Shown: piece by piece, positions 8,333 through 31,035 of the stretch | Numbering within the stretch: the first letter of the stretch is position 1 | How the letters are laid out: each line of letters opens with the position of its first letter | From: an uncultured Desulfuromonadales bacterium | Lineage (GTDB): Bacteria > Desulfobacterota > Desulfuromonadia > Geobacterales > Pseudopelobacteraceae | Assembly: GCA_903868145.1 (NCBI GenBank) | Contig: CAIPTY010000084.1 | Span: 1-54,093 of the forward strand | Length of the DNA stretch: 54,093 nt | Direction of reading: 5' to 3' | The notes under the pieces: generated by a model | What the model saw: the letters and a program-made list of their open reading frames with translations, nothing else | Told to the model about the DNA's origin: nothing | Databases searched by the model: none | Translations under genes and position numbers: made by a program

Positions 8333-8815
8333 ATGAGAGCGCTTGTCCACACATTTATTCTGCTGGCCTGCTTTACTGCCCCGCTATATGCCGCGCCCGC
8401 AAGCATTGTTCCTCTTACAATCAAGGGGAAGGCAATCACAATCGGCTCCTCCGCCGACAGAGCATCAATCGCCACGACTCTCAAAGGGGTATTCAAAAAG
8501 GAAGCGCCCTCCGTATCTTTACCGGATTTTCTCCAGTATGATTTTTCGGCGGTGGAAGGGCAAGGGCCTGTTTCTCTGAACTTTAAATTCGACACGCGGG
8601 GTATGTGGACCGAGATTGACATCTTTGCATATATGAAGGAACAAAATCCGGTTGCACAGCAGCTTGTCGGCTGGCTGACGAAAAAAGTCGGCAAGGGGAA
8701 GAAGAACGGTAAGAAAACAACCTGGAAATATGAAGGACTTGTGTATCGCCTTGAGGAAGTGAAAGACTCTGGTGATGAATCGGCCTACAGCATGAACATT
8801 TCAAAAATAAGGTAA
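8333..8815 (+). CDS. Secreted protein of unknown function
   Basis: A 160-residue exported protein. Residues 1-20 are a signal peptide (LLACFTAPLYAA). The mature part starts with beta-strand-like segments (IVPLTIKGKAITIG) and has a basic stretch, KKVGKGKKNGKKT, near residue 122. It starts with an ATG nine bases after aaaaagg. I recognise no family. It lies 11 bp before a membrane-protein gene and may be co-transcribed with it; the terminator at 8238 separates it from the upstream lipoprotein. Confidence 0.72.
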   Translation: MRALVHTFILLACFTAPLYAAPASIVPLTIKGKAITIGSSADRASIATTLKGVFKKEAPSVSLPDFLQYDFSAVEGQGPVSLNFKFDTRGMWTEIDIFAYMKEQNPVAQQLVGWLTKKVGKGKKNGKKTTWKYEGLVYRLEEVKDSGDESAYSMNISKIR

Positions 8816-8826
8816 TATTCAGAAGC

Positions 8827-9450
8827 ATGCACACGCTTACCATCATGCACGGGTACACCCTGGGATGGCTCGCCTGCTGTATAGCCTCATGCGCACTGGT
8901 GCTGCGCCGTCGGGAGGCATTCGCTTTCATGCACCGGGAATACTGGCGCCTGCAGAGTGAACCGTGGAAACTGCTGACCGGTGCAACCGCTGCAATCGGC
9001 CTGACAGTCATGGCGCCCTACACGGGCGATCCGACCTGGGACTATGTTGACGCCCTGTTCATGTCGATCCTGACATATACTGCGGCACCATGGACGGTGG
9101 CGATCCTCTTCCGCTTCTTCAGGCGTCTGGCCTCGATACAACAGATGTTCGTGGCCTGCTGCCTCTGGTTATTTTCGGCCAGTTGGTCATACGACCTCTA
9201 CATCTGGCTGCGTGACGGTTTGTACCCCCTCACATGGACATCCAACCTGGTGGCGTCGTCATTTCTGTACCTGATGGGTGGCTTGGTCTGGTGTCTGGAA
9301 TGGCTGCCCGGCAGAGGAATGTCCTTCTCGTTCATGCGACCCGATTGGCCACTACGCACCGTTTCAACCCCATTCAGCAGGATCGCCTGGCTGGCGTTGC
9401 CAATAATGCTGCTGATAGCAGTTCTTATGCTCAGGTTCCTGCTCCCGTAA
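8827..9450 (+). CDS. Six-helix membrane protein of unknown function
   Basis: A 207-residue protein with about six transmembrane segments (near 9-26, 52-68, 80-98, 110-125, 140-158 and 185-205) and a short Arg-rich first cytoplasmic loop (LRRREAFAFMHREYWR). There is no recognisable family motif and no pore or transporter signature. The start could be ATG 8827 or the in-frame ATG 8845. It follows the secreted protein at 8333 with an 11-bp gap and converges with the DUF815 gene. Confidence 0.7.
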   Translation: MHTLTIMHGYTLGWLACCIASCALVLRRREAFAFMHREYWRLQSEPWKLLTGATAAIGLTVMAPYTGDPTWDYVDALFMSILTYTAAPWTVAILFRFFRRLASIQQMFVACCLWLFSASWSYDLYIWLRDGLYPLTWTSNLVASSFLYLMGGLVWCLEWLPGRGMSFSFMRPDWPLRTVSTPFSRIAWLALPIMLLIAVLMLRFLLP

Positions 9451-17981: not shown

Positions 17982-18668
17982 ATGTTGCTTGAACCCTCCG
18001 AGGCCGCACAGGCCCTGAACGTAGATGAAAAGTCAGTGCTTCGCTGGATCAAAAAAGATCATTTGCCTGCGGAGTCTCTCCAGGGAGATTACCGGATCAA
18101 CCCCGTGGACCTTCTGGAATGGGCAACGGAGCGTGGCATAAAGGTTAATCCGGCTCTCTACAAGATGCCGGAAGCGGATAGTTGTCCGTTGCCGAATCTG
18201 AGCCAGGCGCTGAAGGCCGGCGGCATTCATTGCGGATTTCCGGGAACCGACAAGGAAACGGTACTGCGTAATGCTGTTGCTATCCTGGATCTGCCAGCGG
18301 AGATCGATCCCGACTTTATCCTGCAAGTCCTGCTGGCACGGGAAGCCATGGGGACAACTGCAGTTGGCGACGGGATTGCGATACCCCATGTGCGCAATCC
18401 GATCCTGGTCCAGTTGCCCGTCCCGAAGATTGCCCTCTGCTTCCTCTCGGAACCGGTTGACTTTGGGGCGTTGGATGGCAAACCGGTTCAGATACTCTTT
18501 ACCATCATCTCGCCGACTATCAGGATGCATCTGCATCTGCTCTCAAAACTGGCCTATTGTCTGAGGGATCAACGTTTGCGAGATATTCTTGGCAGGCAGT
18601 GCAATGCCGAGGGAATTATGGCCGCCGTTCTTGAAATTGAAAACGATATCGGAAAATCCGCTTCATGA
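17982..18668 (+). CDS. HTH-EIIA(Ntr) regulator (PtsN-like)
   Basis: A 228-residue protein with two domains. Residues 1-60 are an excisionase/MerR-type helix-turn-helix (EPSEAAQALNVDEKSVLRWIKKDHLPA). Residues about 75-222 are a PTS EIIA(Ntr) domain with the phosphorylatable His136 in GIAIPHVRNP. Such a fusion suggests a DNA-binding or protein-binding switch set by the nitrogen-type phosphotransferase cascade. It is divergent from the Ehr operon and is the natural candidate for its regulator, though that is inference from position. No PtsP or HPr gene is present in the window. Confidence 0.88.
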   Translation: MLLEPSEAAQALNVDEKSVLRWIKKDHLPAESLQGDYRINPVDLLEWATERGIKVNPALYKMPEADSCPLPNLSQALKAGGIHCGFPGTDKETVLRNAVAILDLPAEIDPDFILQVLLAREAMGTTAVGDGIAIPHVRNPILVQLPVPKIALCFLSEPVDFGALDGKPVQILFTIISPTIRMHLHLLSKLAYCLRDQRLRDILGRQCNAEGIMAAVLEIENDIGKSAS

Positions 18669-18963: not shown

Positions 18964-19548
18964 TTGAAAAAGAAAAAGATGATCATCTCGCAGGAAACCA
19001 TGGATGTTGATTTCGTCCGAAAGGTCGAGTCACTTTCTGGAACATCGGTTCGGCGCTGCTTCCAATGCGGCAAATGTTCGGCCGGATGTCCCATGGCAAC
19101 CTTCATGGAGCATCCACCCAACCGGGTTGTGCGCCTGCTGCAGCTGGGTCAATGGCAACGCATCCTTGCCGGTCGATCCATCTGGTACTGCGCCTCCTGT
19201 GAAACCTGTTCCACCCGCTGCCCCAACAAGGTGCATCTGGCCTCCATCATGGACGCCCTGCGCAAACTCTCCTGGGATGCGGAAGGACCATCCAAGGAGA
19301 GCTATGTTCAACTGGCCAACAAGCTCTTTCTCCAGAACATCCGCACCTACGGCCGACAGTACGAAATGAGGCTCGCCGCCGTATTCAACGTCAAATCCGG
19401 CCAATTTCTGAAAGACCTGATGCTTGGCCCGAAACTGCTCGCCAAAGGCAAACTGAAAATGTTCCATCATAAAAACAAGAACATGACCGAAATCGAAAAG
19501 ATATTCACCCGCATTGAAGCAATGCGTCACAAGGGGGAGGCTCTGTGA
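18964..19548 (+). CDS. hdrC: Heterodisulfide reductase subunit C (HdrC)
   Basis: A 194-residue soluble iron-sulfur protein with two classical 4Fe-4S motifs: CFQCGKCSAGCP (Cys32, 35, 38, 42) and CASCETCSTRCP (Cys76, 79, 82, 86). It passes electrons between HdrA and HdrB. TTG 18964 is taken as start because aaggacg lies about eight bases upstream; the next in-frame ATG (18979) is too far from it. The C-terminal 80 residues are basic and helical. There is no membrane segment, so the complex is cytoplasmic. The stop overlaps the hdrB start by four bases. Confidence 0.93.
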   Translation: MKKKKMIISQETMDVDFVRKVESLSGTSVRRCFQCGKCSAGCPMATFMEHPPNRVVRLLQLGQWQRILAGRSIWYCASCETCSTRCPNKVHLASIMDALRKLSWDAEGPSKESYVQLANKLFLQNIRTYGRQYEMRLAAVFNVKSGQFLKDLMLGPKLLAKGKLKMFHHKNKNMTEIEKIFTRIEAMRHKGEAL

Positions 19549-20432
19549 GCGAATCAACTCCTCTTAAATATGCCTATTATCCCGGATGTTCGCTGCACGC
19601 ATCGGCCGGCGAGTATGACCTTTCAACCCGCGAACTCTTCAAGGAACTTGAGATCGGCCTGACCGAAGTGCCCGACTGGTTCTGCTGTGGAGCCACACCG
19701 GCCCATAACGTGGACGAACTGCTGTCGCTGTCCCTGTGCGCCAAGAATCTTGAGCTTGCCGAGCAGGTCGAAGGGGATCTGGCCGTTGCCTGCGCGGCAT
19801 GCTTCTCGCGCCTCAAGACCACCCAGCATGTTCTTGCCGAGAGCGACGTCAAGCGCAAGCAGGTGGAAAAGGCCATCGATGCTCCCCTGAAAATTGACGG
19901 CAAGGTTAAACATCTGCTCGATATCATCGCCCACGACCTGGGGTTGGAAAAGCTGAAATCCGCCGTCAAAAAACCTTTGGCCGGTCTCAAGGTGGCCTGC
20001 TACTACGGCTGTCTGCTGACCCGTCCGACCGATGTACCGAATCTGGACTGCGTTGAAGCGCCCACGATCATGGAGGATGTGCTCGCGGCGGTCGGCGCCG
20101 AGACCGTTCCCTGGACCCACCGTCTGGAATGCTGCGGCGCCAACTTCACCCTCTCGCGACCCGGCGTTGTCATACAGCTCACCAATGCCATACTCGATTC
20201 GGCAAAAGCCGCCGGAGCGGACTGTGTCATGGTGGGCTGCCCGCTGTGTCACGGAAATCTTGACATTCGCCAGAAAGAGATCGAAGGCGTCTACAACACC
20301 AGTTACGCCCTGCCGGTCTTCTACATCACCCAACTGGTCGGCATGGCCTGCGGGCTCTCCCCCGAGAAACTGGGACTGGGGGCGCTCATAGTAAACCCGA
20401 TGCCCCTGCTCAAATCGAAGGGTCTGGTGTGA
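19545..20432 (+). CDS. hdrB: Heterodisulfide reductase subunit B (HdrB)
   Basis: A 295-residue catalytic subunit with two CCG domains. The first contains YYPGCSLH, FCCGAT and CAACFSR; the second CYYGCLL, ECCGANF and CPLCHGN. In methanogens these cysteines hold two unusual 4Fe-4S clusters that cleave the CoM-CoB disulfide. In bacteria the disulfide substrate is not settled; DsrC-type proteins have been proposed. The start GTG 19545 overlaps the hdrC stop, and the stop overlaps the response-regulator start, each by four bases. Confidence 0.93.
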   Translation: MSESTPLKYAYYPGCSLHASAGEYDLSTRELFKELEIGLTEVPDWFCCGATPAHNVDELLSLSLCAKNLELAEQVEGDLAVACAACFSRLKTTQHVLAESDVKRKQVEKAIDAPLKIDGKVKHLLDIIAHDLGLEKLKSAVKKPLAGLKVACYYGCLLTRPTDVPNLDCVEAPTIMEDVLAAVGAETVPWTHRLECCGANFTLSRPGVVIQLTNAILDSAKAAGADCVMVGCPLCHGNLDIRQKEIEGVYNTSYALPVFYITQLVGMACGLSPEKLGLGALIVNPMPLLKSKGLV

Positions 20433-20845
20433 CACAACCGCTGCGCTGTCTGGTGGTTGATGACGATGAGCTGAGTCGGGAAATGCTGGTCGCCATGCTG
20501 GCGGACTGTGCAGTGTGTGATGTCGTTTGCAACGGCAAAGAGGCTGTTGAAAGGTTTGCAAAGTCCCTCACATCAATCGGCTATGACGTGATCTTTCTCG
20601 ATATACTCATGCCGGAGATGGATGGTCACGAAGCGTCCCGAATAATTCGTCAGATGGAACAGGAACGCGGCATCAGCCCGGACAGGGGAGTCAACATTGT
20701 TGTTCTGACCTCCCTCAATACGCCGGATGATATAATTCAATCCTACATGTCGGCCCAGTCGGCGGCTCACCTGATAAAACCGGTCAAACCGGAAAAGCTG
20801 AAGAAGACCCTGCACAGAATGGGGCTGATCCCTGAAGAGGTTTAA
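20429..20845 (+). CDS. CheY-like single-domain response regulator inside the hdr operon
   Basis: A 138-residue receiver domain without an output domain. The acidic pocket is VVDDDE (about 10-14), the phosphoryl-acceptor Asp58 is in IFLDILMPEMDG, the switch Thr is in VVLTSLN and the conserved Lys in HLIKPVKP. It starts with GTG inside the hdrB stop (GTGA overlap) and ends directly before the hdrA ATG, so all three are made from coupled translation. A receiver between HdrB and HdrA suggests either direct regulation of the Hdr complex by phosphorylation or a hitchhiking signalling gene. The cognate kinase is not identified; the kinase at 26996 carries its own receiver. Confidence 0.92.
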   Translation: MTQPLRCLVVDDDELSREMLVAMLADCAVCDVVCNGKEAVERFAKSLTSIGYDVIFLDILMPEMDGHEASRIIRQMEQERGISPDRGVNIVVLTSLNTPDDIIQSYMSAQSAAHLIKPVKPEKLKKTLHRMGLIPEEV

Positions 20846-22843
20846 ATGTCCAGAATAGGCGTATTCATCTGCCATTGCGGCGAGAACATATCCAGAACCG
20901 TTGATGTGGCACGGGTGGCGGCGGAAGTAGGCAAGCTGCCGGGTGTAGCTTTCTCCACCGACTACAAGTACATGTGTTCCGACCCGGGGCAGACCCTGCT
21001 GAAGAAAACCATCCAGGATCAGAAGCTCTCCCACGTCGTCGTTGCGGCCTGCTCTCCCCGCATGCACGAGCGCACCTTCAGGAAGGCCGTCGAAGCCGCC
21101 GGATTGAACCCGTTTTTATGCGAGATGGCCAACATCCGCGAGCACTGTTCCTGGGTCCACGAGAACATCGAGGAAGCCACTGTCAAGGCCACTGAAATCG
21201 TCGGCATGATGGTCGAACGGGTCAAGAAGAATCGCGTTCTCCCCACCATCACGGTACCCGTAACCAAAAGGTCGCTGGTCATCGGCGGCGGCATCGCCGG
21301 AATACAGGCGGCGCTGGACATTGCCGACGGCGGTCACGAGGTCATTCTGGTCGAACGCGAACCTTCCATCGGCGGCCACATGGCCCAACTCTCCGAAACC
21401 TTCCCGACCCTTGACTGTTCCCAGTGCATCATGACCCCCAAGATGGTGGATGTCGCCAACCACCCTAAAATTACACTTTATACCTATTCCGAGATCGAAC
21501 TTGTCGAGGGTTACATCGGCAATTTCCAGATCACAATCAGGAAAAAAGCACGCTCGGTCGATGAGGACAAATGCACCGGCTGCGGGGTCTGCATGACCAA
21601 ATGCCCGATAAAGAAGATTCCCAACAAATTCGACTGCAACCTGGGCATGCGCCCGGCCATCTACGTTCCCTTCCCCCAGGCTGTGCCCAACACCCCGGTC
21701 ATCGACCGTGATAACTGCACAAAATTCAAGACCGGTAAATGCGGCCTCTGCCAGAAAGTCTGCGGCCCTGGCGCCGTGGACTACGAACAGGAAGATACCC
21801 TGATTGTCGAACCGGTCGGCGCCATCGTGGTGGCAACCGGCTTCGACCTCTACACCATTGCCGAAAAGCCCAAAGGCTCCCCCATCAAAGGCTACGGCGA
21901 ATTTGGACACGGCAAAATACCGGATGTCATCGACGGCATGACCTTCGAGAGACTCGCCTCGGCGTCCGGCCCCACCGGCGGCAAAATCCTGCGCCCTTCC
22001 GACGGGAAGGAACCGAAGCAAATCGTCTTTATCCAGTGCATCGGCTCTCGTGCAAGAGAAAAAGGGATCTCCTACTGTTCCAAAGTCTGCTGCATGTATA
22101 CCGCCAAGCACACCATGCTGTACCACCACAAAGTGCACGACGGGCAGGCATATGTCTTCTTCATGGACGCCCGCACCCCCGGCAAGAGCTACGATGAATT
22201 CTGGCGCAGATCAATTGAAGAGGAAGAAGCGGTCTACATCCGGGGTATGGTATCGCGTCTCTATCAGAAGGGTAAAAAGATCGTCGTGATGGGGAGCGAC
22301 ATCGCCGTAGGCGTCCAGGTCGAGATCGAAGCCGACATGGTGGTTCTGGCCACGGCCATTCAGCCTCAGGCAGGAGCCGACACCCTGGCCCAGAAACTGG
22401 GCATCTCCTACGATAAATACAACTTCTACTCCGAAGCCCACGCCAAGCTGCGCCCCGTGGAATGTGCCACCGCCGGTATCTACCTGGCTGGCGCCTGCCA
22501 GGGTCCCAAAGACATCCCGGATACTGTCTCCCAGGCCTCCGCAGCAGCAGCCAAAGTCATGGCGCTGTTTTCCAAGGATAAACTGGAACGGGAACCGATC
22601 GTGGCCAGGGTTAAGGAATCGGCCTGTGTCGGCTGTTTTGCCTGCAAGAAGGTCTGCGCCTACGGTGCGATTGAGGAGAAGGAAATCAGGGACCGCCAGG
22701 GCAATCTTGTAAAAGTTGTTGCCTACGTCAACCCCGGCGTATGCAGCGGTTGCGGCACCTGTCAGGCCACCTGCCCTTCCAAGTGCGTGGAACTGGATGG
22801 GTATACGGATGAACAGATAGTCGCGATGATAGAGGCACTGTAA
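20846..22843 (+). CDS. hdrA: Heterodisulfide reductase subunit A (HdrA), flavin-containing
   Basis: A 665-residue flavo-iron-sulfur subunit. In order: an N-terminal domain (FICHCGENIS), the FAD-binding GGGIAGIQAALDIADGG with ERE and GGHMAQ, the HdrA hallmark FPTLDCSQCIMTPKM, a 4Fe-4S motif CTGCGVCMTKCP, a second inserted set CGLCQKVC, and a C-terminal ferredoxin with CVGCFACKKVC and CSGCGTCQATCPSKC. HdrA is the electron-bifurcating centre: electrons from the Flx side split between ferredoxin and HdrB. The domain set is complete. A 175-bp palindromic repeat separates it from flxD. Confidence 0.93.
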   Translation: MSRIGVFICHCGENISRTVDVARVAAEVGKLPGVAFSTDYKYMCSDPGQTLLKKTIQDQKLSHVVVAACSPRMHERTFRKAVEAAGLNPFLCEMANIREHCSWVHENIEEATVKATEIVGMMVERVKKNRVLPTITVPVTKRSLVIGGGIAGIQAALDIADGGHEVILVEREPSIGGHMAQLSETFPTLDCSQCIMTPKMVDVANHPKITLYTYSEIELVEGYIGNFQITIRKKARSVDEDKCTGCGVCMTKCPIKKIPNKFDCNLGMRPAIYVPFPQAVPNTPVIDRDNCTKFKTGKCGLCQKVCGPGAVDYEQEDTLIVEPVGAIVVATGFDLYTIAEKPKGSPIKGYGEFGHGKIPDVIDGMTFERLASASGPTGGKILRPSDGKEPKQIVFIQCIGSRAREKGISYCSKVCCMYTAKHTMLYHHKVHDGQAYVFFMDARTPGKSYDEFWRRSIEEEEAVYIRGMVSRLYQKGKKIVVMGSDIAVGVQVEIEADMVVLATAIQPQAGADTLAQKLGISYDKYNFYSEAHAKLRPVECATAGIYLAGACQGPKDIPDTVSQASAAAAKVMALFSKDKLEREPIVARVKESACVGCFACKKVCAYGAIEEKEIRDRQGNLVKVVAYVNPGVCSGCGTCQATCPSKCVELDGYTDEQIVAMIEAL

Positions 22844-22854
22844 AATCAGAATCC

Positions 22855-23002
22855 ACCTCAGAGTCACAGAGATCTCTGAGGAATTTAACGACAGAGAAAA
22901 CAAGGGGAAATAAAGCTTTAGCCCCAAAAAGATGTATGCTTTTATGTATCTAAAAAGGTTTTTTTGTTTTCTCAGTGTCCTCTGTGACTCTGTGGTGAAA
23001 AG
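22855..23002. repeat. Long palindromic repeat between hdrA and flxD
   Basis: Outer arms cagagtcacagag (22861 region) and ctctgtgactctg (22979 region) pair, with further pairing of gagaaaacaa and ttgttttctc inside. The hairpin spans nearly the whole hdrA-flxD gap. It is of the same type as 25500-25643 and 1-270. Being transcribed within the operon, it should form a large RNA hairpin that could affect mRNA stability or relative expression of the Hdr and Flx parts. Confidence 0.82.
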
Positions 23003-23018
23003 ATTTAAAGGATTTAAA

Positions 23019-23519
23019 ATGCACACTGAAAAACCGAAAAATTCATTTGAACCCAAGATCATCGCCTTCGTCTGCACCTGGTGCACATACGCCGGTGCCG
23101 ACCTGGCCGGTACATCGCGCATGCAGTATCCGTCAAACGTGCGGGTACTCAAGTTCCCCTGCACCGGCCGCATCGATCCGGTCTTTATCCTCAAGGCCTT
23201 TCAGCAGGGGGCCGACGGGGTGCTGGTCTCCGGCTGCCATCCGGGCGACTGTCACTACATCGCCGGAAACTTCCATGCCCGCAGAAGATTCGCCGCCTTC
23301 AGAAAGCTGCTGGAGTTCATCGGCGTTGACCTGAACCGCCTGCAGTTCTCGTGGGTTTCGGCCGCCGAGGGGGGGAAATGGGTCGAGGTAGTGACCGACC
23401 TGACCGAACGGGTCAGAAGCATGGGACCGATGGTGGAGTTCAAGGAGCTGGCCATGGAAGAGCAGTGGTCCGGAACCATCGACACTCCGGAACTGAAAGA
23501 AGCGTATAACCAAATCTGA
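23019..23519 (+). CDS. flxD: FlxD / MvhD-family iron-sulfur subunit
   Basis: A 166-residue MvhD-domain protein that links HdrA to its electron-donating partner. Cysteines typical of the family are in FVCTWCTYAGADLAG, KFPCTGRIDP and SGCHPGDCHY and bind a 2Fe-2S cluster. ATG 23019 (MHTEKPKNSFEP) is the start: aaagga lies just upstream, and longer frames would run into the palindromic repeat. In methanogens MvhD connects the hydrogenase to HdrA; here the partner is the Flx NAD(P)H dehydrogenase. Confidence 0.9.
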   Translation: MHTEKPKNSFEPKIIAFVCTWCTYAGADLAGTSRMQYPSNVRVLKFPCTGRIDPVFILKAFQQGADGVLVSGCHPGDCHYIAGNFHARRRFAAFRKLLEFIGVDLNRLQFSWVSAAEGGKWVEVVTDLTERVRSMGPMVEFKELAMEEQWSGTIDTPELKEAYNQI

Positions 23520-23544: not shown

Positions 23545-24465
23545 ATGACACAACCAATTGATGAATCCATCTATACCGCCGTTACCGTGGCCATCCAGGC
23601 CGAGGCGCAACGAATTCTCTCCGAAGGACTGGTAACGGCGGTTGTCGGCTACGCATCCGCCCGCCGCAAAGGTTCGACCCAGCCGATCGTGATCACCGAC
23701 GCAGCTTTGGCGGAGAAGCTGATTTTTACCCCCGCCTGTGTCAACAACCTGGCGGTCTACCTGACCAAGGCCAAGAAAGAAATCCCAAAGACCGGCAGGA
23801 TCGGCATCGTTGTCAAGGGGTGCGACCTGAAGGCGCTGGTGGGTCTCATGGGTGAATCACAGCTCAAACGGGAGGATCTCTACCTGATCGGTGTTCCCTG
23901 CATCGGTGTACTTGGTTCCATCATCCAGCCGGATACGGCGTTCACATCCGACTCCATAGCCCCCAAATGCCGCGAGTGCGACGCCCACCTGCCGCTGGGA
24001 TGCGACTTCGTTCCGAGCCAGCAGCCGATCACTCCGGAACTGGAAAAGAAGTACGCCGCCGAAATCGACCGTCTTGAGGCCATGACGCCTGCCGAGCGCT
24101 GGGCATACTGGAAAGAGCAGTTCTCCAAGTGCATCAAGTGCTACGCCTGTCGCCAGGTTTGCCCGTTCTGTTTCTGTGAACAATGTCTCTGCGATCGCAA
24201 CAAGCCCCAGATGGTGGAAACAACTCCTCGTCCGGCGGGAAATTTCGCCTGGCATATTGTTCGTGCCATGCACCTGACCGGAAGATGCGCCGGTTGTGCC
24301 GAGTGCGAGCGGGCCTGTCCGATGGATATACCCCTGAATCTGCTGAACCGCAAGATGGCCAAGGAGTTGAAGGACCTGTATGAATATGAGGCCGGCTTTG
24401 AAGTCAATGCAAAAGGGCCGCTGACGATGTTTACGGAAAAAGATGACCAGAGCTTCATCAAGTAG
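23545..24465 (+). CDS. Flx iron-sulfur subunit (FdhB/FrhB-like with 4Fe-4S dicluster)
   Basis: A 306-residue cytoplasmic electron carrier. The first 130 residues resemble the F420-hydrogenase beta/FdhB type domain (GIVVKGCDLKAL, GVPCIGV). Cysteines follow in CRECDAHLPLGC, then CIKCYACRQVCPFCFCEQC, and a second ferredoxin motif CAGCAECERACP near the C-terminus. It corresponds to one of the two ferredoxin-like subunits (FlxB/FlxC) of the FlxABCD-HdrABC system; I cannot say which from sequence alone. It lies 25 bp after flxD. Confidence 0.85.
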   Translation: MTQPIDESIYTAVTVAIQAEAQRILSEGLVTAVVGYASARRKGSTQPIVITDAALAEKLIFTPACVNNLAVYLTKAKKEIPKTGRIGIVVKGCDLKALVGLMGESQLKREDLYLIGVPCIGVLGSIIQPDTAFTSDSIAPKCRECDAHLPLGCDFVPSQQPITPELEKKYAAEIDRLEAMTPAERWAYWKEQFSKCIKCYACRQVCPFCFCEQCLCDRNKPQMVETTPRPAGNFAWHIVRAMHLTGRCAGCAECERACPMDIPLNLLNRKMAKELKDLYEYEAGFEVNAKGPLTMFTEKDDQSFIK

Positions 24466-24489: not shown

Positions 24490-25494
24490 ATGAAAACATA
24501 CATCTCCGAGCAAAACCTGAACACCCTCCTTGACACGCTGATTGCTGAAGGCAAGCGCGTGGTAGCCCCCCGTATGAATGCCGGTACACCGCTGTACGAA
24601 CCGCTTGCAAGCGCAGACGAGCTGGTTACTGACCAGTTGCCGAAACGGTCGGGCAAGGAGGCATTCTTCCCCCTCTGCGAGGACATAATGTCCTACGAGA
24701 AGGAGGGGCAGAAGGTCAGTATAACGGATATCGATCCGGCACGTTTTCCGGAGACCGTGCTGGTGGGCGTACGCTCCTGCGATGCCGCCGCGATTCCGGT
24801 TCTGGATGCGGTCTTCTCCTGGGACTACAAGGATGAATTTTTCCTGGAGCGCAGAAAAAAGACCACCGTTGTGGGACTGGCCTGCACCATGGCCGACGAC
24901 GCCTGTTTCTGCACCGCTGTGGGTCTGTCTCCCGCCGAAACCAGGGGGAGCGACCTGTTCCTGACCCCCGTCGAGGGGGGGGGCTACTCCTGCGAGACCT
25001 GTAGCGAAAAAGGTGAGGCGCTTGTAAAAAGCTACACAGCACTCTTTGCCGAAGCCTGCAGTTCCAAGGCCCTGCCGCTGGCAGAGCCGCAGACCGAAAA
25101 GATCGACCTTCAGAAAGTCAAGGGTTGGCTTGACAACCACTTCGAGGATCCGGCCTGGGATTCGATCGCTACCCGCTGCGTCGGTTGCGGAGCCTGCGCC
25201 TTTGTCTGCCCGGTCTGCCACTGTTTCGACATCGTGGACGAAGGAACCGAGAAAAGCGGCAAGCGCCGGAAGAACTGGGACGCCTGCGGCTTCTGGAAGT
25301 TCACCCATCACGCATCGGGTCACAATCCACGCGACCAGCAGCCCAAACGCTACCGCAACCGCATCATGCACAAATTCAAGTATTACGACGACAAGTTCGG
25401 AGAGACTCTCTGCACCGGCTGCGGCAGGTGCATCCGGCTCTGCCCGGTGGGAATTGATATCGCCGGTATCGTTGAAGAGATAAGCAAAAAATAA
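24490..25494 (+). CDS. Flx iron-sulfur subunit (sulfhydrogenase beta-like)
   Basis: A 334-residue protein of the 4Fe-4S dicluster group related to the beta subunit of soluble sulfhydrogenases. An N-terminal domain of about 200 residues contains VGVRSCDAAAIPVLD and a Cys set CTMADDACFC, and is followed by two ferredoxin motifs, CVGCGACAFVCPVCHCFD and CTGCGRCIRLCPVGID. It would pass electrons from the flavin subunit FlxA toward FlxD/HdrA. It is 24 bp after the previous gene, while a 159-bp palindromic repeat separates it from flxA. Confidence 0.87.
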   Translation: MKTYISEQNLNTLLDTLIAEGKRVVAPRMNAGTPLYEPLASADELVTDQLPKRSGKEAFFPLCEDIMSYEKEGQKVSITDIDPARFPETVLVGVRSCDAAAIPVLDAVFSWDYKDEFFLERRKKTTVVGLACTMADDACFCTAVGLSPAETRGSDLFLTPVEGGGYSCETCSEKGEALVKSYTALFAEACSSKALPLAEPQTEKIDLQKVKGWLDNHFEDPAWDSIATRCVGCGACAFVCPVCHCFDIVDEGTEKSGKRRKNWDACGFWKFTHHASGHNPRDQQPKRYRNRIMHKFKYYDDKFGETLCTGCGRCIRLCPVGIDIAGIVEEISKK

Positions 25495-25653: not shown

Positions 25654-26502
25654 ATGAGTGATCACACCAACAAGAACATCTACCTCCCCTACCTTACCAC
25701 TGTCGAAGAGGTCATCGACGAGACGCCTGATGTGCGTACACTCAAGCTGGTCTTTCAGGATGAAAAGGTCAGGGAGAACTTCAGCTTCCGGGCTGGCCAG
25801 TTCGCGGAATACTCGGCATTCGGAGCCGGGGAATCCACCTTCTGTATCGCCTCATCTCCAACGCGCGCGGGCTTTATCGAGTGCTGTTTCCGCTCGGTGG
25901 GCAGAGTTACCGAGGAGCTGCGACGTCTCGAAGTGGGGGACAGCCTGGGTGTTCGCGGCCCCTACGGCAATTCCTTTCCCATTGAGGATTTCTTCGGTAA
26001 AAACCTGGTCTTCGTAGCGGGCGGTATCGCTCTGCCGCCGTTGCGCACGCTGATCTGGAACTGTCTGGACTGGCGCGACAAATTCGGTGACATCACCATC
26101 GTCTACGGCGCTCGAACCGAGTCTGATCTGGTGTATAAGCGGGAATTGATGGATTGGCAGGAACGTGCGGATGTGCGGCTGGTCAAGACCGTCGATCCGG
26201 GCGGCAACGGCCCGGAGTGGGACGGCAGGGTCGGTTTCGTGCCGACCATACTGGAAGAGGCGGCACCGGGCGCAGAAAACACCATAGCCCTGGTATGCGG
26301 CCCGCCGATCATGATCAAGTTCACCCTGCCGGTGCTGGAAAAACTGGGCTTTACCGATGAGCAGGTGTACACCACGCTGGAGAACCGTATGAAATGCGGC
26401 CTGGGAAAATGTGGCCGCTGCAATGTGGGCAACGTCTACGTATGCAAGGACGGGCCGGTCTTTACGGCACAGCAGGTCAAGGCCATGCCGATGGAGTTCT
26501 GA
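25654..26502 (+). CDS. flxA: FlxA, FAD/NAD(P)H-binding oxidoreductase subunit
   Basis: A 282-residue flavoprotein of the ferredoxin-NADP reductase/dihydroorotate-dehydrogenase-electron-transfer (PyrK, HydG-like) family. It has the FAD-binding barrel (FRAGQFAEYS, FCIASSPTRAG), the NAD(P)-binding domain (VFVAGGIALPPLRTL, VCGPPIM), and a C-terminal 2Fe-2S motif MKCGLGKCGRCNVGNVYVCKDGP. It feeds electrons from NADH or NADPH into the Flx-Hdr complex. It is the last gene of the operon and converges with the DsbC-like gene with five bases between stops. A ribosome site (aagaagga) precedes ATG 25654. Confidence 0.9.
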   Translation: MSDHTNKNIYLPYLTTVEEVIDETPDVRTLKLVFQDEKVRENFSFRAGQFAEYSAFGAGESTFCIASSPTRAGFIECCFRSVGRVTEELRRLEVGDSLGVRGPYGNSFPIEDFFGKNLVFVAGGIALPPLRTLIWNCLDWRDKFGDITIVYGARTESDLVYKRELMDWQERADVRLVKTVDPGGNGPEWDGRVGFVPTILEEAAPGAENTIALVCGPPIMIKFTLPVLEKLGFTDEQVYTTLENRMKCGLGKCGRCNVGNVYVCKDGPVFTAQQVKAMPMEF

Positions 26503-26507
26503 CGCTG

Positions 26508-26999
26508 CTACCGACGTGGACCCAGGGCTTCCTCAATCATTTTTAAGTCAAAACCTTCAATAATCCTGCCGTTTATCATGAATGTCGGTGTAGCCGACAC
26601 CTTGTTTTTCTTTGCCACCTCCAACTGTTCATCCAGCATCCTGACACCTGCAGGGGTTGAAGCAAGTGGCGGAGCCGCATCCATTCTCCCTGACATGACA
26701 TCGTGGTAGGCTCGTGACCTGTCCGGCATCGAAAGGACAAAACGGGCCTTTTCCCGTGCACGGGGATGACGGGCCAGGGGATAAAAGAATACATACCGCT
26801 TCACGTCAGTACGCTGGTCAAAGTAGCTGGAAGCCTTGCGGCAGAAGGGGCAATCCGGATCGGTAAACTCCAGAACGACCTTGGAGCCTGAACCTATCTC
26901 TATGGCCCGGCTGAGATCAACTCCTCCCGCAGCCGCAGGGCGGATCCAGCCGCAGGCCGCACATACCAGACCTATCATCATAATCCTGAGTACCGTCAT
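26508..26999 (-). CDS. Periplasmic thioredoxin-fold protein (DsbC/DsbG-like)
   Basis: A 163-residue exported thioredoxin-fold protein. A signal peptide ([18 protein letters not shown]) is followed by the redox motif CPFC (Cys50, Cys53) in TDPDCPFCRKAS and a cis-Pro loop in SATPTFMING. It lacks the dimerisation domain of classical DsbC, as do many short DsbC-like proteins in this group. A role in disulfide exchange or c-type cytochrome maturation is plausible. Its start ATG overlaps the stop of the upstream kinase gene by four bases, making it the last cistron of the gntR-selA-ispD-kinase chain. Confidence 0.85.
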   Translation of the reverse strand: MTVLRIMMIGLVCAACGWIRPAAAGGVDLSRAIEIGSGSKVVLEFTDPDCPFCRKASSYFDQRTDVKRYVFFYPLARHPRAREKARFVLSMPDRSRAYHDVMSGRMDAAPPLASTPAGVRMLDEQLEVAKKNKVSATPTFMINGRIIEGFDLKMIEEALGPRR

Positions 27000-28207
27000 A
27001 CTGCTGTTCCTCCCATACAGTCCGGGCAGCGAATCCTGTCTGGCGGATAGCAGGGGAGCAGGATGATAAACTCGCTGCCACCCTCCGGGGGACTCTCGGC
27101 CCAGATGGTTCCGTTGAAACTGTTCACCGCCTGACGACAGAATGCCAGCCCCAGTCCCGCACCCCCTTTTTCCCGGATGGTGGCATTTGCGGACTGGATG
27201 TACCGATCAAAAACGCGGCCCAGATCTTCCGTCGGGATGCCGTTGCCGCTGTCCTTGACGGACAATTTAACGAAACAGGTGCGGCAGGCGATCCCCGCAG
27301 ATGGCTGAACATATACCGGAATTCTCACTCCGTTGGCCCCACCGTTATCCACACACCGGCACGAAACCTCAATCGCTCCCCCTTCGGGTGTAAATTTGAC
27401 AGCATTTGCCAACAGATTGGTTAGAACCCTGCCCATGACGAAGCGATCTACCGCAATAACCGGCATCTCCTCCGCCACGTCAAGCGTCAGTGAAATGCCG
27501 TCATGTTCAATGGCTCTGATAAAGTTTTTTACCGCCGAGGCGATAATATCTGCAGGTTCGCAGGGCCTGAGTGATATGGGCATCATGCCCGACTCAAAGC
27601 GCCTCAGATCAAGCATGTTATCGATCATGCTGACAATTTCGCTGCAACTGTCGATGGCAGACTCCAGATATTCCTTCTGTTCCTGATTTACCGGACCGAG
27701 CCGACCCTCACGGATGATATCGATGGAACCGACCACCGCCGTAATGGGGTTTTTCAGATCGTGGGACAGCATGAAGAAAAAATCTTCCTTCTCCTGTTCA
27801 AGTTTTTTCTTCTCCCTCATTGTCCGCCGGATGGAAAGCGCCCGTTCCAATCTCTGGAGCAGATCGTCAAGCGAGAACGGTTTGGTGAAATAGTCGAAGG
27901 CGCCTGATTTTATGCACTCCACCGCCAGATCCTCACTGCCGTGGGCGGTCATTATGATCACAGCGGTCTCCAGGCCTGCCTCCTCAACACGCTTAAGCAG
28001 ATCAATGCCGCTCATTCCGGGCATTCTGACATCCACAAGCGCAAGCGCGTAGCTGTTGCCGTTCAGCATGTTCCAGGCCGTGTCGCCGTCTCCAGCCCAA
28101 TCGGTACTGTAACCGGAATCTCCCAGATGAAGCTTGAGTATGACGGCAATATCCGGTTCATCATCCACAATCAGAATCCTTTCGGGCAATTGTGCTGACA
28201 TGTTCAC
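26996..28207 (-). CDS. Hybrid response regulator-histidine kinase
   Basis: A 403-residue cytoplasmic protein with a receiver domain first (phospho-Asp59 in [11 protein letters not shown], Lys109 in FTKPF), a coiled-coil linker rich in Lys/Glu (about 125-142), a HisKA dimerisation domain with His149 in LSHDLKNP, and an HATPase domain ([26 protein letters not shown]). There is no sensor or membrane region, so the input is probably phosphotransfer to its own receiver. Two Cys pairs (ACRTC within the ATPase domain and RCPDC at the C-terminus) are unusual and might respond to redox state or bind metal. ATG 28207 overlaps the ispD stop by four bases. Confidence 0.9.
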
Positions 28208-28917
28208 TGTTCCTTTCTCCGGCGGGCAAGAAAAGCCTCTGCCAGGACAAGATCCTCAGGGGTGGTTATCTTGATGTTCTGGTACTCTCCGTTGACGATT
28301 CTTACCCTGCCGCCCAACCGCTCGACCAGTGACGCATCGTCGGTGCCGCTGCAGTTTTCACGCTCTGCCGCTCGATGGGCGTCGTAAATGATGCCGAAGC
28401 GGAAAGTCTGGGGGGTCTGCGCCTGCCAGAGCATCTCGCGCGGTGGAGTGTCAATGACGATGCCGTCACGAACGGTCTTTATGGTGTCCTTGGCCTGAAC
28501 GGCCACAAGAGCGCCGTCATTGCAGCGGGCAGATTCGATGGATGCAGTCAGCAGAGCAGGAGAGATCAGGGGACGGACACCGTCGTGGATGAGCACGGTA
28601 TCGTCATCCGTCACATCCGGCCGCATGGCATTCAGGCCGTTCATGACTGAGTTCTGACGTTCGCGCCCCCCCGGCACAATTGCACGTACTTTGCGAAATC
28701 CGCAGGCTTCCACGACATGCTCGCGACAGTAGGGAATCTCGTCCGCGGGGATCACCAGATAGATCGCTTCAATAAGGGGTGAGCTTTCAAAGATTGCGAT
28801 AGTGCGGGCAACAATCGGCAACCCCTCAAGCAGCAGGTACTGTTTGTTGATGGACGCCCCCATGCGTTTTCCCATGCCGGCGGCAGGTATCAGGGCGAAA
28901 GAGCGGTAGTCGTTCAT
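28204..28917 (-). CDS. ispD: 2-C-methyl-D-erythritol 4-phosphate cytidylyltransferase
   Basis: A 237-residue IspD enzyme of the non-mevalonate isoprenoid pathway: MEP + CTP gives CDP-methylerythritol. The nucleotide-binding loop [12 protein letters not shown] with the following KQYL is at the N-terminus; [21 protein letters not shown] and [12 protein letters not shown] follow in the usual order. Its normal partner ispF is not adjacent. It overlaps selA and the kinase gene by four bases on either side. Confidence 0.95.
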
Positions 28918-30344
28918 CTGACGGTCTCACAGCAGCGTTTTGCCGCTTCTGCAAGGGAGTTTGAGAGTGCGGGAAGGTCGCGGTCAAGAATCGTGCGGAC
29001 ATCCAGCAGATAGCGGTCATGGTGGATCCTGCCTATAACCGGTACTGGTGGCCGCCGCAGGGCGGCTTCAATCTGCTGCGCCGATGAAACGCCTATCCTG
29101 ATCTCGATGAGTGTTGTTGGAAGTTGGAGCAGGGGGAAGGAGCCCCCGCCGGCGCTTGATTCACCGGGGTGTTTGACCAGTGAGACGGAATCCGGAATCG
29201 CTCGGCGTAGTTTTCGGCAGATCGTATCGGCTCGTCGGACAAGCTGCCCGCCTGTCATGGTCAGCATGCGCAGAGTGGGAATTGAGGCCAGCGCACGCCG
29301 CTCATCCCGATACAGCCGCAGGGTCGCCTCCAGAGCGGCCAGATTGAGCTTGTCCATGCGCAGAGCCCGCAGCAGAGGGTGGTGTTTCATCGGTTCAATA
29401 AGGCGCCGTGCTCCGGCGATCAGACCGGCCTGGGGGCCGCCCAGCAGTTTATCACCGCTGAAGGTCACCAGATCGGCTCCTTTTTCCAGATACTGCCTGA
29501 TGGTTGGCTCGCCGCTGATACCATAGGAGGAGAGATCAATAAGGGAGCCGCTTCCCGCATCCAGCATGACCGGAATCCCCGTTTCAGGCCTCAACATGGC
29601 CATTGCGCCGATGGAAACCTCGGCAGTAAAGCCCACAATTGCAAAATTGCTGGTATGCACCTTAAGCATCAGGGCGGTTGCATCGGTGATGGCAGCACGG
29701 AAATCAGTGATGTGCGTGCGGTTTGTGGTGCCGACCTCGACCAGTCTGGCGCCGCTCTGACGCATGACATCCGGGATACGGAAGGAACCGCCGATCTCCA
29801 CCAGTTCGCCCCGCGACACGATCACCTCACGTCCCTGTGCCAGTGTGGTGAGCGCCAGTATGACCGCCGCCGCATTATTGTTGACCACCAGCGCCGCTTC
29901 CGCCCCGGTCAGCTCGCAGATCAGACCTTCAACGTGGGCATAGCGACTGCCACGCTCGCCGTTTTCAAGGTCGAATTCGAGGTTTGAATAGCCTGCCGAG
30001 ACCGAATGAATGGCCTCTTCAGCCTCATCCGCCAGTGGTGAACGCCCCAGATTGGTGTGAACCACCACACCGGTGCCGTTGACAACGCCCCGCAGGCTGC
30101 GGGATGTGCGGAATTCGAGTTCTGACATAATCAGCGCGATGATCCGGGCTGGCTCGGGCACATCCGCCAGAACGCCGGTTAGCACCTCACCGCGCAACCG
30201 GTCAATCACTGCGCGAACGCCTGCCACAACCACCGGTCGCGGATACCCGTCAACACCCAGCGCCAGATCGCTCCACGCCATAACCCGGTCAACCTTGGGC
30301 AGCGTCCGCAGCAGTTGCTGAATTCCTGTGGAGAGAACTGCCAT
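28914..30344 (-). CDS. selA: L-seryl-tRNA(Sec) selenium transferase
   Basis: A 476-residue PLP enzyme converting Ser-tRNA(Sec) to Sec-tRNA(Sec) with selenophosphate, so the organism makes selenoproteins. Family landmarks: [17 protein letters not shown], the glycine-rich [13 protein letters not shown], and the PLP lysine in [12 protein letters not shown] (near residue 298). ATG 30344 is taken as start; a longer frame would run back into gntR. The gene begins one base after the gntR stop. selB and selC are not in this window. Confidence 0.95.
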
Positions 30345-30345
30345 G

Positions 30346-31035
30346 TCAGAGATCAATCTGGAGTTCGGCCCGCTGGGATGCCGTGACAGCTCCGTCCAGC
30401 AAAACCCTGCCGCCGTATTCCGCATTTTTGCGCACCAGCATCTCGGCTGTCTCCGCCTCGTGCGCACGGAACGCCTCAATTATTTTCTGATGTTCCTGAA
30501 CCGCTATCTTCATTCTGCCCGGCAGACTGAGAGACATGAAGCGCAGCCGCTGAAAGCGTGTCACGACGCTGGTGATCAGCTCCTTCAGTTTTTCGTTGTC
30601 TGCCGCCTTGATGAACATGTCATGGAAATCGCTGTGGATTTTGAAAAAAGTCTTGATGTCGTTCTGCTCTGCCAGTTCGGAGAGCCGGTCATTGATTGCC
30701 TGGAGCCGATCAAGCTCCCTGGCGGTCAGCTTTGCGCAGGCCATGCGCGCGGCATAGCCTTCCAGGATGCTTTTTATGGCATAAAACTCCTCAACATCCT
30801 TCTGATTGAATTCGCTGACAATCGCTCCACGGCGAGGGATGACGGACAGATAGCCCTCCGATTCCAACTGGCGGAATGCTTCGCGGATCGGAGTCCGGCT
30901 GATGCCGTAACGTTCGGCCAGTTCCGGTTCCGATACCCTGCTGCCGGCCTTCAGGGTCCCCGATATGATGGCGTCACGGATATGTTCCAGGATCATCTCG
31001 CGCAGTGTGAGATGCTTTTCAATGGCTTTTTTCAT
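30346..31035 (-). CDS. GntR-family regulator, FadR/FCD subfamily
   Basis: A 229-residue transcription factor. The winged helix (REMILEHIRDAIISGTLKAGS, SEPELAERYGISRTPIREAFRQLESEG) is followed by an all-helical FCD effector domain (about 80-215) containing the metal-ligand pattern Asp...His (HSDFHDMF) and a later His (VQEHQKI). It probably senses a small organic acid. It is the first gene of the selA-ispD-kinase-dsb chain. The near-palindrome ttgtatacagtatgca at about 31068 in front of it could be its own operator. Confidence 0.9.
   Translation of the reverse strand: MKKAIEKHLTLREMILEHIRDAIISGTLKAGSRVSEPELAERYGISRTPIREAFRQLESEGYLSVIPRRGAIVSEFNQKDVEEFYAIKSILEGYAARMACAKLTARELDRLQAINDRLSELAEQNDIKTFFKIHSDFHDMFIKAADNEKLKELITSVVTRFQRLRFMSLSLPGRMKIAVQEHQKIIEAFRAHEAETAEMLVRKNAEYGGRVLLDGAVTASQRAELQIDL

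Follow-up and report, generated by a model that had tools for sequence, protein, structure and literature searches.

A stand-alone receiver gene lodged between hdrB and hdrA in the hdr-flx operon of part of one Geobacterales family

An FlxABCD-HdrABC system has reportedly been described by Ramos and colleagues in 2015. A contig of 54,093 nucleotides from an uncultured Desulfuromonadales bacterium (CAIPTY010000084.1 of GenBank assembly GCA_903868145.1, analysed over its whole length and called the window below) matches that system in gene content and order, with hdrCBA, mvhD/flxD, flxC, flxB and flxA on one strand, and differs from it by one added gene, which lies between hdrB and hdrA and encodes a stand-alone CheY-like receiver. 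The arrangement is genuine and of long standing in one family, and the protein is functional. Its best explanation, in which our confidence is middling, is that a phosphorelay receiver with a partner of its own has become lodged in the operon, is co-expressed with Hdr and acts mainly elsewhere; this is favored over a subunit of Hdr-Flx, a pairing with a neighboring kinase, or a neutral passenger.

Receivers attached to redox complexes have been described in mycobacteria. For Rv3143, co-purification with NuoD and crosslinking to it have been reported; its orthologues frequently lie in the nuo operon, and 513 of the 516 NuoD proteins bearing an insertion co-occur with Rv3143 (PMC9274095). Another study counts MSMEG_2064 as an extra, supernumerary subunit of Mycobacterium smegmatis complex I (PMC11522691). 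What the two cases have in common is a receiver that stands alone, has a conserved Asp and frequently shares an operon with the genes of a redox complex dependent on NADH; the gene in the window is likewise encoded within the operon of the complex. The differences are that the mycobacterial proteins belong to another complex and another phylum, that physical binding was shown for them, and that NuoD has a co-occurring insertion, whereas no matching indel was found in the Hdr and Flx proteins tested. In the literature searched, neither a stand-alone receiver of Hdr nor direct phospho-control of electron bifurcation was found. The first-pass annotation, which had not seen such an arrangement described, thus stands with regard to Hdr and has to yield with regard to redox complexes in general, in view of the Rv3143/MSMEG_2064 work (PMC9274095).

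Another stand-alone receiver with four cysteines is FixT of Caulobacter, described as an Fe-S (iron-sulfur)-binding single-domain receiver with cysteines 53, 56, 59, and 64 (PMC7078487). The window receiver also has four cysteines, at residues 7, 27, 30, and 34, a spacing different from that given for FixT. C7 is found in 45 and C30 in 37 of the 46 family members, while the hdr relatives have other residues at 27 and 34; an Fe-S receiver was rejected since C27 and C34 are not common to those relatives. A third group, the receivers of Hpt phosphorelays (GacS D1, Sln1-YPD1, Spo0F-like), provides the nearest folds and sequence matches of the window receiver. Its orthologues sit behind a HisKA-HATPase-REC-Hpt kinase, whereas the window has none adjacent.

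On the plus strand of the window, hdrC (18964..19548, with a TTG start as listed) overlaps hdrB (19545..20432, GTG start) by 4 nt. The receiver gene (20429..20845, plus strand, GTG start), named cheY below, overlaps the hdrB stop by 4 nt in its turn, and the ATG of hdrA (20846..22843, plus strand, 665 amino acids) follows its TAA after 0 nt. As read from the sequence, a possible ribosome-binding site of cheY, gaaggg (20417..20422, plus strand), lies within hdrB, and a probable one of hdrA, gaagagg (20834..20840, plus strand), lies in the last codons of cheY. Pfam assigned CCG to HdrB, Fer4 and FAD-binding domains to HdrA, and FlpD to MvhD, and the genes from hdrC to the flxA-like one remain on one strand up to 26502. 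The first-pass annotation had described a CheY-like gene that overlaps the hdrB stop by four bases and abuts hdrA inside an otherwise standard hdrCBA-flx operon; the coordinates confirm the former statement, and gene order with Pfam the latter. The coupling to hdrB and hdrA that it had also proposed recurs in relatives. With gene starts chosen by script, 13 of the 16 carriers that have hdrA on the contig show no gap between the cheY stop and the hdrA start (the distance is 13 nt in G011, 70 nt in G131 and 174 nt in G019), and the spacing from hdrB to cheY is between -4 and 11 nt in 16 of the 17 carriers (65 nt in G007). Where the cheY stop touches the hdrA start, the ribosome-binding site of hdrA falls within the last codons of cheY. 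An acidic tail is common to many hdr-resident receivers, and that site may explain it. Co-transcription of cheY with the hdr genes is probable from this layout; a promoter and terminator scan gave counts near chance (4 against 4.3 and 11 against 8.5), with no verdict on an internal stop.

The product has 138 residues, of which 8-128 match Response_reg (Pfam, E 1.2e-17), and no second family was detected in it. Both Pfam and the structural model describe a single-domain response regulator, that is, a receiver domain without output domain. The predicted structure is a (beta-alpha)5 receiver (mean predicted local distance difference test score, pLDDT, 88; predicted template modeling score, pTM, 0.85). 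The phosphorylation pocket of receivers comprises an acidic pair, a phospho-acceptor Asp, a Thr/Ser and a Lys, which correspond here to D11/D12, D58 (counting the GTG as 1), T94, and K117. D12, D58, K117, and P118 are invariant across the 46 family members, every one of which has Ser or Thr at position 94 and Asp or Glu at position 11, and the motif is complete in 46/46; the pocket around Asp58 is intact, as had been claimed. Among solved structures, the best matches are receivers from hybrid kinases whose partners are Hpt proteins, namely GacS D1 (Z 20.8), the Hpt-bound receiver 8pdc (Z 20.7), and Sln1/YPD1 (Z 20.5), whose scores are ties within 1 Z.

Ratios of nonsynonymous to synonymous substitution rates (dN/dS) for the receiver lie between 0.03 and 0.15 in all pairs for which dS is finite, 10 out of 12. 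To judge by these ratios the gene is under purifying selection, and since the junction moreover recurs in 17 of 107 genomes, it is not a chance reading frame. The best conserved stretch comprises I90 (46/46), T98 (43/46), D101 (44/46), S111 (45/46), A113 (46/46), and K117/P118 (46/46). The conserved face is shared by hdr and non-hdr members, which points to a common partner. Hdr itself might be that partner, in trans, since most of the genomes concerned have Hdr; but the receiver family is also present where Hdr was not found, in G134 and in G041 (100% estimated completeness, no HdrB at E<=1e-40).

The distribution was examined in 141 genomes of the order. HdrB was found in 107 of them (E<=1e-110) and a receiver orthologue in 53 (E<=1e-31), in exactly one copy each. 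By coordinates, the receiver directly follows hdrB in 17 of the 107 hdrB-bearing genomes, all of them in family f1, where they represent 17/61 of the hdrB-bearing genomes, and it is missing at that junction in the other 90. The carriers fall under five genus codes (g2, 11; g5, 2; g7, 2; g1, 1; g9, 1), and two records in the clade of 11 carriers (L166, L168) bear the name Trichlorobacter. In a separate set of 88 hdrB loci with one duplicate (L099 = L136), the same 17 carry the receiver and 71 do not. Among the 70 receiver-less loci having both genes, the gap between hdrB and hdrA is at most 266 bp in 69, which is too short for a receiver gene; the remaining one, of 480 bp, holds a PDDEXK_3 gene. 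The receiver is therefore no standing member of the FlxABCD-HdrABC operon, and a standing Hdr subunit across the order was rejected on the strength of both the carrier count and the gap sizes. Conservation across Geobacterales, named by the first-pass annotation as a check, holds for part of family f1 and fails for most genomes of the order, and absence from related operons, which was to mark the gene as a passenger, is accordingly partial. G102 has two hdr loci (L101, L112), only one of which has the receiver at the hdrB/hdrA junction.

On the HdrB tree, the presence of the receiver needs seven changes; the 11 carriers form one clade, and the other six are scattered in the same 60-row part. 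On the receiver tree, carriers group by genus. An old insertion followed by several losses would fit both trees. In 277 genomes of the class, no receiver orthologue was found outside the order at E<=1e-31, and five weaker matches (34-41% identity) were found in other orders of the class.

Of 24 orthologues in other contexts, 18 follow, at a distance of 21-96 bp, a kinase related to a HisKA-HATPase-REC-Hpt kinase, these domains having been assigned by Pfam for two of the kinases; the other-context orthologues of the family members G008, G113, G114, G117, G121, and G132 are not among the 24. These orthologues are often clustered with HDOD and FapA genes. In clusters of the type seen at L066, L069, and L070, the genes encode a glutamate dehydrogenase-like protein, PilZ and HDOD proteins, the HisKA-HATPase-REC-Hpt kinase, the receiver orthologue, FapA, a second receiver and a lactate racemase-like protein. 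No such kinase lies directly ahead of the receiver in the window or in the other 21 rows in which the receiver is hdr-resident or relocated. A kinase related to the Hpt kinase was present in 37 of 37 genomes searched. The two kinds of receiver, hdr-resident or relocated on the one hand and other-context on the other, never occur in one genome among the 53; within the family they number 22 and 24, and zero overlap has p 3.7e-5 if genomes are independent. We count this never-together pattern as weak evidence.

In five genomes (G004, G017, G034, G134, G130), an intact orthologue of the same lineage is found away from the hdr genes. The relocated cheY adjoins ispD or its neighbors in the first four and lies 4.7 kb from that block in G130; the ispD block itself borders hdr-flx in the window as well as in many relatives. 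G130 retains a fossil (L102), in that a fragment of the 3' end of hdrB lies directly upstream of the intact cheY (8755-9156). The 100 nt upstream of this cheY aligned with the hdrB 3' end of G000, G102, and G131 above all of 1000 shuffles each, while 14 of 1000 shuffles reached the score obtained with hdrB of G007 and 161 of 1000 that obtained with G018. The fossil next to an intact cheY indicates that the hdr genes have decayed at least once while cheY stayed. No hdr remnants were found beside cheY in G004, G017, G034, and G134 by shuffled alignments and tblastn; the weak tblastn matches there were discarded because they were on the opposite strand or out of place. In G134, searches for HdrA (E<=1e-60) and HdrB (E<=1e-110) were both negative; this draft is 92% complete and 6% contaminated. 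The other four have an hdr operon elsewhere in the genome, without a receiver.

These observations can be assembled as follows. A stand-alone phosphorelay receiver would have settled at the hdrB/hdrA junction in an ancestor of the family and would later have been lost from the operon several times. Being co-encoded and translation-coupled, it would be made together with Hdr, and the ribosome-binding site of hdrA would now be in its last codons. Asp58 is probably phosphorylated by a phosphorelay encoded elsewhere in the genome, the likeliest donor being an Hpt-domain hybrid kinase of the type that precedes the orthologues in other genomes. The signal would then leave through the conserved beta4-alpha4-beta5 face toward a partner that is common to the non-hdr orthologues and is not primarily Hdr; this partner presumably lies outside Hdr. 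That the protein works in a phosphorelay is the best explanation, and we hold the scheme as a whole to be evenly balanced between right and wrong.

Several points weigh against this scheme. Within genus g7, which has many of both kinds of receiver, zero overlap has p = 0.17, and a single receiver copy per genome could reflect ancestry. G131 has a close kinase (71% identical) with no such receiver behind it, its receiver being in hdr, and G009 and G010 have close kinases (75-76%) with no such receiver either beside the kinase or in hdr. The strict junction geometry, at 0 nt to hdrA and on the hdrB side alike, would be expected of a subunit too. In the HdrB and receiver trees, gain and loss are not distinguishable. 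As to the relocated genes, the contig of G034 ends about 140 bp upstream of cheY, its only hdrB match being on another contig; of the five genomes, G134 alone lacks hdr, and its draft is incomplete and partly contaminated as stated; and the hdr operon elsewhere in the other four would allow action of the receiver on Hdr in trans. A recent move of the receiver from an Hpt-kinase cluster into hdr was rejected, as the receiver of G131 groups with the hdr rows in the receiver tree and thus belongs to the hdr lineage.

The alternative that survives best has the receiver serving Hdr-Flx, in the carrier lineages, as an accessory subunit or gate under phosphorylation control, in the manner of Rv3143/MSMEG_2064. 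The first-pass annotation had seen in it a hint of a subunit or of a direct gate on electron bifurcation. In its general form this is not supported, in that 90 of the 107 genomes lack the receiver at the junction, five have it relocated, and no indel tested and no residue of HdrA, HdrB or HdrC tracks it. Restricted to the carriers, the subunit keeps some weight because the junctions are strict and complex I offers a parallel, and we regard it as possible though doubtful. The position and tight coupling of the receiver recur under five genus codes, all within one family, the gene appears to be under purifying selection, and a published parallel exists on mycobacterial complex I. Among the fold matches, 8e9g_O, a receiver chain of mycobacterial complex I that we take to be MSMEG_2064, ranks 37th, and RpfF with the RpfC receiver (3m6m, Z 19.2) is a case of a receiver bound to another protein.

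If the receiver were part of Hdr, however, traces would be expected in the Hdr proteins. HdrA, HdrB, HdrC, and MvhD were compared in 60 family operons, 17 with and 43 without the receiver; no residue of HdrA, HdrB, or HdrC separates the two groups, the best frequency difference being about 0.65, and the top differences are mostly due to the 11-genome clade. Residue 183 of MvhD is the closest to separating them, with Leu at a frequency of 0.85 in carriers and 0.05 in others; the window has Ile there. In HdrA/B/C and FlxA/B/C no indel tracks the receiver, the gap frequency differing by at most 0.5 in every column; the NuoD insertion that accompanies Rv3143 thus has no counterpart in these six proteins. 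The receiver is also much less conserved than its neighbors between distant genomes: for G000 compared with G102 and G131, identity is 55-65% for the receiver, 84-86% for HdrB, and 91-94% for HdrA (55, 86, and 94%, respectively, for G000 and G131). Finally, it is kept in G134, where no HdrA or HdrB was found, and beside the hdrB fossil in G130. The more specific proposal by analogy with complex I, that in carriers a phosphorelay would directly throttle the flow of electrons among ferredoxin, NADH and thiols through a phosphorylation-switched Hdr-Flx subunit, appears rather unlikely.

Less probable still is that the receiver is the cognate of the adjoining receiver-HisKA-HATPase kinase (26996..28207, minus strand), the two forming a two-component pair that flanks or enters hdr-flx; this kinase was considered as phospho-donor and is not favored. 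Many family members have its gene next to hdr-flx, and in G017 and G134 the relocated cheY is a neighbor of this kinase locus. However, the kinase was found in 28 of 32 genomes searched, including the receiver-less G001, G003, G005, G009, G010, and G026, and was not found in the receiver-bearing G004, G019 (74% complete), G034, and G139 (83% complete), so that as a partner it was set aside because the two do not consistently co-occur.

The junctions of the hdr-flx operon do accept other passengers. Genes encoding PDDEXK_3 proteins lie at the hdrB/hdrA junction in G010, between flxB and flxA in G023 and G031, and after mvhD in G015; that of G010 (L079:5752-6147), which fills the hdrB/hdrA junction, is flanked by inverted repeats. 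Relatives of the L079 gene are found at other junctions in L084, L085, and L095. That the receiver too is a neutral passenger with no function at the hdrB/hdrA junction, as these genes and its own patchy presence might suggest, is very improbable given its low dN/dS, its invariant pocket, the strict junctions in five genus codes and its retention after loss of the hdr neighbors.

The receiver may bear on how Hdr-Flx is controlled in metal reducers, a question that can be put to the test in cultured carriers, among them Trichlorobacter thiogenes (L166). If the receiver is a subunit, it would be the Hdr counterpart of Rv3143 on complex I. Even if, as we favor, it is a phosphorelay receiver acting elsewhere, it is a documented example of a signaling gene that has lodged between two subunit genes, supplies the next ribosome-binding site and has outlived the operon, and it cautions that operon membership alone is a poor guide to function.

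The remaining genes of the operon are on the plus strand. Downstream of hdrA, mvhD/flxD is listed at 22932..23519, with an in-frame ATG at 23019 as the likelier start. It is followed by genes for flxC-like (23545..24465) and flxB-like (24490..25494) iron-sulfur proteins and for an flxA-like NAD/FAD-binding protein (25654..26502), all identified by open reading frame and Pfam; their Flx letters are assumed from gene order. An imperfect 30-nt inverted repeat (22854-22883 / 22968-22997) lies between hdrA and mvhD, and the listed mvhD start falls inside it. Past flxA, a minus-strand block (26508-31035) encodes a thioredoxin-like protein, the receiver-HisKA-HATPase kinase, ispD, selA, and gntR, and it flanks hdr-flx in many family members. 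Upstream of hdrC, a gene at 17982-18668 encodes a helix-turn-helix domain (HTH_17) fused to a PTS EIIA domain.

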